Shown here: positions 3,001-63,874 of the stretch, piece after piece
Layout of the letters: each line of letters begins with the position of its first letter
Position numbering within the stretch: the stretch's first letter is position 1
From: Tribonema minus
Lineage: Eukaryota; Sar; Xanthophyceae; Tribonematales; Tribonemataceae
Reading direction: 5' to 3'
NCBI GenBank assembly: GCA_017506865.1
Contig: JAFCMP010000148.1
Span: forward strand, 1 to 64,000
DNA length: 64,000 nt
Translations under genes and position numbers: made by a program
Notes under the pieces: generated by a model
What the model was told of the DNA's origin: nothing
The model's database searches: none
The model's input: the letters and a program-made list of their open reading frames with translations, nothing else

Positions 3001-6000
3001 GGGCGGGGCGCCCTTTGTCAGTGGCCATTATGTACTAAGCGTATAGCCCACGCACAGGAGCTCCCTGTCCACTTAGGGTTTGGGTCGGGGTTAGGGCAAG
3101 AAGTTAGGGTTAGGGTTAGGGTCAGCAGCGGGGGCAACAGCGGGGGGCAACAGCCGTGGACTCGGGGCTCCTGCCCGTAGGCTATATGCTTATTTACATG
3201 TTGGCCACTGACGATGGGGGCCCCGCCCAATCCATTCTTTGCAGCGGCTGCCATAGACGCATGCGCCAAGGCTGCGGCGGAGTCCGGGCCCGAGCAGAAC
3301 GGCGGCCGCTCTTTGAAACAAGCGTGTAGCCCCCGTCCAGAAATTCGGATCATCAGTGGGGGCACACGCTGGGGCCAGGTACAGACGCTCGAGCGCCGCC
3401 TGCGACACAATGGCCAGGCTCGAAGTGACAGTTGTGGATGTCACGTGCGGTGCCATGGCAGGTGGGGTTGGAGATGCTGTGTCGGAAGATCAACACCACA
3501 CGCCACTGGAGCGCCCACACCACCTGGGTCAGGGGCTCTCGCAGCTTTACCTTGATGGGCTGCAGCTTCTGCACAGCCCGCGCCATTGCTATCCGTGATA
3601 TTGAATCGCGCACATGCTGTCAACACCACTGCCCGCGGACTGTCGCGGCCACGACCGGTCGCACCTCACAGCAGCAATATGGACACGCGCGAGCAGCGCT
3701 GTGGCTTTGCACTTCAAAGTGTAGACAGCGAGGTCGTAGCCAGGGCCTGCGTTACAGTGAGGCGCGTGGAACGCTAAACTCAAATGAAAATAGCGTTAAG
3801 CTAGAGGGCATGCTGGGGTTGTGAATCATACCCCTAAACCCTAGCCCTAGCTGTCGCCTAATCTCGCCCTCTCTGTCCGCTGAAATTGATGCTGGAGTTA
3901 TGAAACATCACTGGCGGCGCGCAGCATTGTAGCCCTACCCGTTGCCTGATGCGACCCTCTCTGCTTGCCGCTATCGCAGGCGAAGGACGTGTTCTCGCGC
4001 GTTCGCGAGGTTTCCGCAGAGGTCCTGGGTGACGTCTGGGTCAACCTGGCGCACGTCTACCTCGCGCAAAATAAGGTGAGGGGGGAATCGGGGAAGGGGA
4101 TGGGGGGGATGGGGGTTGAGGGGGGGAGCGGGAGGCATGTGCATGGTGGTGATGGTAGTGGTGACACTTCCGTGTTTGAATGCGTCTGTGCCCGTGCACA
4201 CCTGCAAAAGAGTCCTTGGGGGACGATGTAGGGGAGTTAGGGGGGGGGGGGGGGGGGTGTCTATGCCTACCTCGCACGATCCAAGGCGAAGGGGCGGGCA
4301 GTGAACTTATTTCAAAAATCTGGCACCATGCATGACCTGAGGGTTAGATTAGGGTTCAGGATGATCACATGGGAAGTCTGGTGACTAAGCGTGATGCTGT
4401 CTTTTGACCGCCCCTGGTCATGTGAGCCAACGCTCAGCTCCCCTCCCCCCCTCTCCCCCAGACTTTCGCGCCGCCGACTCGTGAAACAGCACTTCAGCCC
4501 CCCCCCCCCCCCCCCCCCCCCTCCCCCCCCGGGCCGGGACCCTTGTGCCACCTGCTCTTGAAAACAGCGCTCTCCCTTCCCCCCCCCCTCCCCCGGCTCT
4601 CTCGCGCCGTGCAGCACCTCGAGGCCATCCAGCTGTACCAGAACTGCCTGAGCAAGTTTCACGGGGGGCGCGATGCGTCGCTGCACCTGTACCTTGCGCA
4701 CGCGTACTTTGAGGCGGGCCGCTTCAAGGAGTGCATGCGCACGCTGCTGAGGGTGAGCGCTGACACACAATAAACAACATCACAGGGCACGGTGCCATGA
4801 TAGTTGACAAATAAGGCAGGGTGGGCGCTGACACGCAAAGAATTGCTGGGCACGGTACGGTGCCATGGTAGGTCCAAAAAACGCATGTAGTGGTATGATG
4901 TGTGGCGGTATGCTTGACGGTACGGAGTCTGAAAGCAGTCTACTCAAGTAGGGCATGCGCACGCTGCTGAGGGTGAGCACTGATGCACGGATGATTCAAA
5001 ATCGCAGTGCAAGGTGCCATAATAGTGCTCTATTTTCAATTTGATGGCAATATATGCAAGGAGTGCATGCTCACGCTGCTGAGGGTGAGCACTGAAGCAC
5101 ACGAGTAGACTGCAGCGCACGGTGCTATAATAGTACCAACATACAGTATGGTGTGCTGTGCGCAGAGGCGTGCCAGGGTGAGCGCTGACACACAATAAAA
5201 ATGTATCATTGCCGTGCACAGAGCAATGCTGGTTTGAAAATACGGTAGGGCGGGCGCTGACATGCAAAAAGGTGCGGTGCACGGTGCCATGATAGTTCAA
5301 AAATATGAATGTAGTGGTGTTTGTAGTGGTGTGCTTCAATGTACGTAGCCTGAGAGCAGTCTATTCAAGGACTGCGCACTCACTCTGCTTGGAACAAGCG
5401 CTGCCATGCAACTTGATCGTGACGCAAGTGCCGTGCTTGTGCTAACAAGCAGGTGGCGAACACCGTGCCCTCGTAGCATTACAGCGGGACTGCATGCGCG
5501 CACTGCTGAGCGTTGGCGTTGACACACACAAGTAGACCGCAGCGGCGTGAAGTGCCATGCTACACGTACAGGGTGCCACGATCTGAGGTTGAGGTTAGGG
5601 TTAGGGTTAGGGTTGAGCCGCGTATGATCACAATGTCCTCCACTCATTGCGGCTGCGCTGCCTGATGCCCCACCCCACCCCCCCCGCCCCCCCACAGGCG
5701 CTCCACACAACGCCCAGCAACCTGCGCCTGTGGTACACAACCTGCACACGTACGGGGTTCCACAGTCGCGCATCAGAATTTTCTCCACAACCTGCGGCCA
5801 CGCTGACTAATTGTGCCCCCCCTCCCCCCCCCCCCGCCCCCCTCTCTTCCTCGTCCCCCCCCTTGCCCCCCCCCTCAGGCACTGCACGCGGAGCCCAGCA
5901 ACCTGCGCCTGTGGTACAACCTGGCGCTCACGCGCGAGACTTTCGCAGTTGCCATCCTCCAGAAGGAGCAGAAGGGCGAGCAGCGCACGCTCGCGGAGGT

Positions 6001-63874: not shown

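Follow-up and report, generated by a model that had tools for sequence, protein, structure and literature searches.

Serial direct copies of exon edges and splice sites within introns of the yellow-green alga Tribonema minus

The closest described systems are duplications of exon DNA that splicing has absorbed. In a potato RdRp gene, according to the part of the report available to us (PMC4974935), a single tandem duplication across an intron–exon boundary gave rise to a new intron and to additional exon sequence; the same text cites two fission-yeast genes in which an intron spans multiple copies of an exon segment of 24 bp. The AGGT model of Rogers (PMC3443670) and the novel introns of Drosophila (PMC2891723), as their accessible sections present them, likewise involve exon DNA that was duplicated locally and then absorbed by splicing. 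Repeat-related intron sequence is also known from introners, which are dispersed families (PMC9860276, in excerpt); in Amoebophrya, also a protist, the boundary direct repeats measure 3–5 nt (PMC7789003, in excerpt).

Introns of Tribonema minus (Xanthophyceae) contain trains of copies of the adjoining exon edge joined to its splice site. These resemble the fission-yeast case in that several tandem copies of exon sequence lie inside one intron, but the fission-yeast unit is purely exonic and 24 bp long, whereas the T. minus units are longer and contain a pre-existing splice junction. Potato represents one event and a new intron; here the copies are serial, lie within existing introns and occur at many junctions. 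Under the AGGT model intron ends should resemble the exons on the other side; this likeness is absent, and the intron positions that could be compared between paralogues are old. Unlike introners, the copies each resemble their own exon edge. Many of the arrays are detected by Tandem Repeats Finder, as minisatellites and other intronic tandem repeats are, but their unit often includes the splice junction and the exon is its source. Among the open-licence literature listed for comparison, mostly as titles and beginnings of abstracts, we recognised no description of such trains. The pattern is real and unusual: a known type of mutation, tandem duplication absorbed by splicing, in serial form, at many junctions and in old introns.

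The window analysed is a stretch of 64 000 nucleotides (contig C148, bases 1–64000) from an assembly of 158 Mb in 554 contigs. Five genes with 39 introns and 78 exon edges were modelled on four contigs: CTR9 and a leucyl aminopeptidase (LAP) within the window, a LAP paralogue on C537, PRP8 on a third contig, and CCT. The junctions of two further genes of the window were inspected. In the CTR9 and LAP models the reading frame was kept open over every junction and GT/GC–AG ends were required. No annotated T. minus CTR9 or LAP occurs among the homologues listed, so that the models stand without backing from the depositors' annotation. Codon scoring, for which eight kinase loci served as training set (L008 contained stops and L005 looked wrong), was used only for spotting candidate exons. 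The two gene models are as follows.

91–11640, + strand: CTR9 (TPR protein of the Paf1 complex), 11 modelled exons, truncated by the contig start
91–224, 702–801, 1544–1624, 3980–4075, 4615–4752, 5879–6090, + strand: CTR9 exons 1–6
7921–8037, 8652–8726, 9383–9508, 10874–10940, 11547–11640 (end provisional), + strand: CTR9 exons 7–11
44838–60469, − strand: LAP (M17 leucyl aminopeptidase), 16 modelled exons in 15.6 kb, outer ends approximate
60469–60398, 60075–59977, 58743–58660, 57926–57836, 56757–56693, 55819–55691, 55072–55004, 54333–54292, − strand: LAP exons 1–8
53804–53721, 52265–52161, 51158–51029, 49263–49141, 47969–47872, 46797–46732, 46121–45981, 44937–44838, − strand: LAP exons 9–16

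The spliced CTR9 frame is continuous over 413 residues. Its top match (E = 8.5e-75) is unnamed, and six of the 21 homologues listed are called CTR9, the best of these at E = 7.2e-53. LAP yields a continuous frame of 499 residues which is co-linear with protein P0024, and a 211-residue portion matches PDB 3ij3 (E = 6.3e-60). The LAP intron between 52265–52161 and 51158–51029 has a GC donor at 52160 (GCGAGG); the paralogue has GT at the same position. Elsewhere in the assembly CTR9 has one weak match only (25% identity), and all five PRP8 matches lie on a single contig, so that, as far as these genes show, the assembly behaves like that of a single organism. The window also holds a trypsin-like peptidase gene with a long open frame (41934–42848; ORF 41988–42845). 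As the deposited peptidase protein P0001 (368 residues) runs past this frame, at least one intron follows.

Each exon edge, taken as 40 bp of exon and 15 bp of intron, was aligned with the adjoining intron and with 100 dinucleotide-shuffled versions of it; a match had to score at least 34 and exceed all shuffles. The exon edge together with its splice site was found copied inside the adjoining intron at 28 of the 78 edges, in 21 of the 39 introns. Both donors (16 of 39) and acceptors (12 of 39) are affected, and the genes differ widely: seven of 20 edges carry copies in CTR9, 14 of 30 in LAP, two of 10 in the LAP paralogue, four of eight in PRP8 and one of 10 in CCT. The initial annotation of the window had described copies in introns of all six genes; the pattern withstands comparison with shuffled introns, but 'all', if read as every intron or edge, has to be given up. 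Reverse-complement copies, sought with the same floor and shuffles, were found at none of the 78 edges. Mid-exon probes matched in two of 40 cases, which counts against a pure edge effect. An earlier version of the test without score floor (first 30 edges, 60 shuffles) had placed 14 forward and three reverse matches above all shuffles, with the top mid-exon scores at LAP exons 2 and 3. Of 66 copies listed, 65 extend to the junction, and 58 of these retain the splice dinucleotide (GT or GC in 39 of 44 donor copies, AG in 19 of 21 acceptor copies).

Arrays which the initial annotation had cited at 6160–6840, 9509–9975, 52870–53720 and 49370–49855 were recovered as scored copies, as was the acceptor array cited at 24490–25260. 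In the acceptor array cited at 34660–35316, copies near 34663 and 34970 precede the real site near 35317 by visual inspection. The arrays of the window are listed here.

4944–5526, + strand: four scored copies, end of CTR9 exon 4615–4752 and donor
5687–5737, + strand: one copy, acceptor and start of CTR9 exon 5879–6090
6188–6839, + strand: five copies, end of CTR9 exon 5879–6090 and donor (GT, AT, GT, GT, GC)
7605–7733, + strand: two copies, acceptor and start of CTR9 exon 7921–8037
8446–8465, + strand: one short copy, acceptor and start of CTR9 exon 8652–8726
9213–9258, + strand: one copy, acceptor and start of CTR9 exon 9383–9508, AG lost
9588–9977, + strand: four copies, end of CTR9 exon 9383–9508 and donor, all GT
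24440–25260, − strand: acceptor and exon start of a WD40-like gene, repeated upstream of its exon that begins at 24458; three scored copies and further ones by eye
34660–35317, + strand: two copies, acceptor and exon start of an unnamed gene, before the real site (by eye)
35480–35790, + strand: same unnamed gene, exon end and donor repeated twice downstream of the exon (by eye; uncited in the initial annotation)
59545–59589, − strand: one copy, end of LAP exon 60075–59977 and donor, GC
58445–58593, − strand: two copies, end of LAP exon 58743–58660 and donor
57580–57744, − strand: three short copies, end of LAP exon 57926–57836 and donor
56446–56608, − strand: two copies, end of LAP exon 56757–56693 and donor
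55992–56025, − strand: one copy, acceptor and start of LAP exon 55819–55691
52872–53605, − strand: six copies, end of LAP exon 53804–53721 and donor
52359–52398, − strand: one copy, acceptor and start of LAP exon 52265–52161
51307–51538, − strand: two copies, acceptor and start of LAP exon 51158–51029
49986–50766, − strand: four copies, end of LAP exon 51158–51029 and donor
49382–49751, − strand: three copies, acceptor and start of LAP exon 49263–49141
48360–49036, − strand: six copies, end of LAP exon 49263–49141 and donor
47732–47784, − strand: one copy, end of LAP exon 47969–47872 and donor, GT lost
45354–45645, − strand: three copies, end of LAP exon 46121–45981 and donor
45215–45252, − strand: one weak copy (72% identity), acceptor and start of LAP exon 44937–44838

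The copies are in direct orientation, mostly 100–180 bp apart and fairly regularly spaced within an array. Self-comparison of the window by blastn gave 141 direct against two inverted matches within 1 kb. Over the aligned part the copies differ from their own exon edge by 0–28%, and by more among themselves. This divergence and the presence of arrays on four contigs make an assembly artefact, for which no supporting evidence was found, practically negligible as an explanation. The homology centres on the junction. Some arrays have unrelated linkers of about 40 bp between their homologous blocks, a feature that clean tandem duplication does not predict. Such linkers would suit an origin of the copies as templated insertions, and so would the enrichment of telomere-like hexamers. 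Templated insertions can take either orientation, however, and the lack of inverted copies at any edge, together with the regular spacing, renders this origin decidedly unlikely. The hexamers (TTAGGG/CCCTAA) number 93 in the window against about 12 expected and form 50 clusters (for example 37484–37532, 51442–51472 and 25653–25735). The CTR9 and central LAP spans contain 34 of them, all outside exons; in 26 the mRNA strand reads TTAGGG.

Among 36 local direct-repeat clusters in the five genes, 25 have the exon–intron junction inside an aligned copy. The other 11 do not cross, which contradicts the claim that the unit always does so. Random placement avoiding whole exons, with whole spans counted (the more generous count), gave 10.35 ± 2.65 crossings, the highest of 5000 runs reaching 23. 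The LAP paralogue was identified through homology, independently of its repeats, and both of its clusters cross. PRP8 and CCT were selected blind to repeats; two of their seven clusters cross and five of seven cross or come within 5 bp of a junction (P = 0.15), an excess that is not significant. The overall excess is partly detection bias, because copies containing exon sequence stay recognisable for longer, the exon not drifting. With the odds of detecting crossing copies doubled, P is 0.002; with the odds tripled, it is 0.05. In view of these adjusted values and of PRP8 and CCT, anchoring at junctions beyond the bias is likely rather than certain.

If exon-overlapping copies are merely recognised for longer, junction-crossing arrays are over-counted, and the clusters might reflect tandem duplication at a high rate, scattered at random through introns, with nothing special at junctions. 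The non-crossing clusters, the PRP8 and CCT result and the effect of threefold detection all agree with this. The 25 crossings against 10.35 expected and the low P-value even at doubled odds speak against it, as do the best identities, which are not lower in crossing clusters (77–97%) than in non-crossing ones (71–86%), a comparison weakened by slow drift of the exon. We regard random scatter as somewhat improbable. A tentative possibility, towards which we do not lean, is that in this lineage tandem duplication is initiated at the splice junctions themselves, for instance by breakage during transcription or by backward template switching at exon edges. Each exon edge would then act as a permanent master shedding copies into its intron, and the arrays would be a dated record of the exon's earlier synonymous states and a main source of intron length.

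The source of the copies was examined in nine arrays, chosen for having copies (those nine of 15 edges that had at least two copies at score 40). Changes private to one copy number 27 synonymous to 47 nonsynonymous (36% synonymous against 27% expected without constraint, P = 0.09) and look unconstrained. Changes common to at least two copies number 13 to three (P = 1e-5). As these are mostly synonymous, they mostly arose while the sequence was still exon, indicating that the exon is the source. The copies thus look like snapshots of the exon from different times which afterwards decayed. An exception is array A2 of the LAP paralogue, which differs from the exon only synonymously (14:0). The initial annotation had also described decay graded along the arrays. 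This holds for donor arrays: in the five that have four or more copies, identity falls with distance at a mean rank correlation of −0.65 (P = 0.0015), one of them, LAP D3, having no trend. It fails for acceptor arrays (three with at least three copies). Other arrays were dropped from this test. From the spread of copy ages we infer that the expansion may be continual, as had been proposed.

The high retention of splice dinucleotides and the synonymous differences of array A2 could also mean that the copies are functional, being selected as reserve or decoy splice sites or as alternative exon ends. The exon-derived parts of copies are, moreover, more alike than the adjoining intron parts in nine of 10 arrays, an observation subject to ascertainment bias as the search query favours it. 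However, a constrained source exon with a drifting intron flank would produce such likeness, so that serial copying predicts the contrast too. The near-unconstrained ratio of private changes, the differing arrays of the paralogues at the same intron position and a transcript-derived protein without copy sequence further argue against function, which we consider highly unlikely.

That protein, P0024, has a source name pointing to a Trinity transcript assembly. It is identical to the spliced LAP paralogue on contig C537 in 220 of 222 residues across five junctions and has no extra residues, although intron 1–2 of the paralogue holds five acceptor copies; at the five junctions covered by this one protein, the copies were not used. 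LAP and the paralogue have five intron positions in common but carry different arrays: before exon 2 the paralogue has five acceptor copies and LAP two, and after exon 3 LAP has six donor copies and the paralogue none listed. It follows that older introns are being enlarged. The proposed intron expansion is supported by median lengths of 1074 bp with copies and 614 bp without (P = 0.0005), a comparison that is partly circular because the copies themselves add length. Copy number alone does not account for intron length, as intron 3–4 of the paralogue, its longest at 2010 bp, has no listed exon-edge copies. It contains a palindrome-like inverted repeat of about 190 bp with 74% identity (L039, 3997–4188).

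The suggested link to intron creation from AGGT-containing exon segments found no support. Over 29 introns, intron starts scored on average 11.9 against their own downstream exon starts and 12.3 against mismatched ones, and intron ends 12.5 against their own upstream exon ends and 11.9 against mismatched ones. The highest own score was 20, above the 99th percentile of mismatched scores (18), without any general resemblance. A junction-crossing duplication did make a new intron in potato (PMC4974935, available part). We nevertheless give very little credence to intron birth in progress by the Rogers model, given the lack of the expected resemblance on average and the intron positions common to the diverged paralogues, which are thus not new.

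The view that the copies do not stem from dispersed introner insertion was borne out. Introners place similar sequence in many unrelated introns, and in the first five-gene set (29 introns) each of the 19 copy-bearing edges had its highest score in the intron adjoining it. A score of 34 or more in a different intron was obtained for eight of 58 edges, two of which, from PRP8 and CCT, scored exactly 34; LAP and its paralogue probably account for part of these matches.

The phenomenon had been called genome-wide. It is present on all four modelled contigs, but sampled stretches are uneven, and 'widespread but uneven' describes it better. Seven readable 4-kb stretches taken regardless of repeats had no local direct repeats in three cases, 9% in one and 36–62% in three. 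By contig (4–6 kb each), the share of bases in such repeats is 11–62% in C148, C200, C450 and C550, 9% in C100 and nil in C3, C10 and C50. In 20 kinase-bearing stretches (L009–L028), a biased sample for introns, coverage was zero in 10 and at most 16%. Some of these stretches, on different contigs, are 91–99% alike over most or part of their length (L009/L010, L011/L012, L013/L014/L015, L016/L017), with long open frames and few local repeats. Fresh duplications were sought in five near-identical pairs, drawn from kinase matches with long open frames, two of them aligning over part of their length only; the long indels were mostly not local duplicates. One stretch, L019 (C40:404000–413999), is unlike the rest, with 75% GC and an open frame of 1239 residues, and might be foreign DNA.

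The explanation we favour, and think reasonably probable, is that tandem duplication across junctions, in direct orientation only and tolerated through the exon-attached site, enlarges existing introns. Gene bodies of T. minus would undergo frequent short tandem duplications with the orientation and spacing described above. A duplication within an exon would break the protein. One spanning a junction would copy the splice site together with the exon edge and be tolerated because the exon-attached, outermost site still yields the original mRNA, the extra copy becoming intron. The constrained exon would serve as a source of copies made at various times, each free to decay, and existing introns would lengthen and fill with retired splice sites. 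At the DNA level, replication slippage, backward template switching or unequal exchange may be responsible. Besides the linkers, the acceptor arrays without gradient, array A2, the single copy-bearing edge in CCT and the few crossing clusters in PRP8 and CCT count against this explanation, as do the share of detection bias in the junction excess, the loose relation between intron length and copy number and the missing backing from the depositors' annotation.

The lengthening of introns without harm to the gene is often put down to mobile elements. In T. minus the intron material is the gene's own boundary, and a single genome suffices to read its source, order and decay. Gene models in such a genome are predicted to contain errors, copies being mistaken for exons. 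The arrays make it testable how the spliceosome ignores several near-identical sites close by, and whether splice junctions are hotspots of duplication. The findings suggest that repeated duplication of its boundaries can lengthen an intron while the protein remains unchanged.
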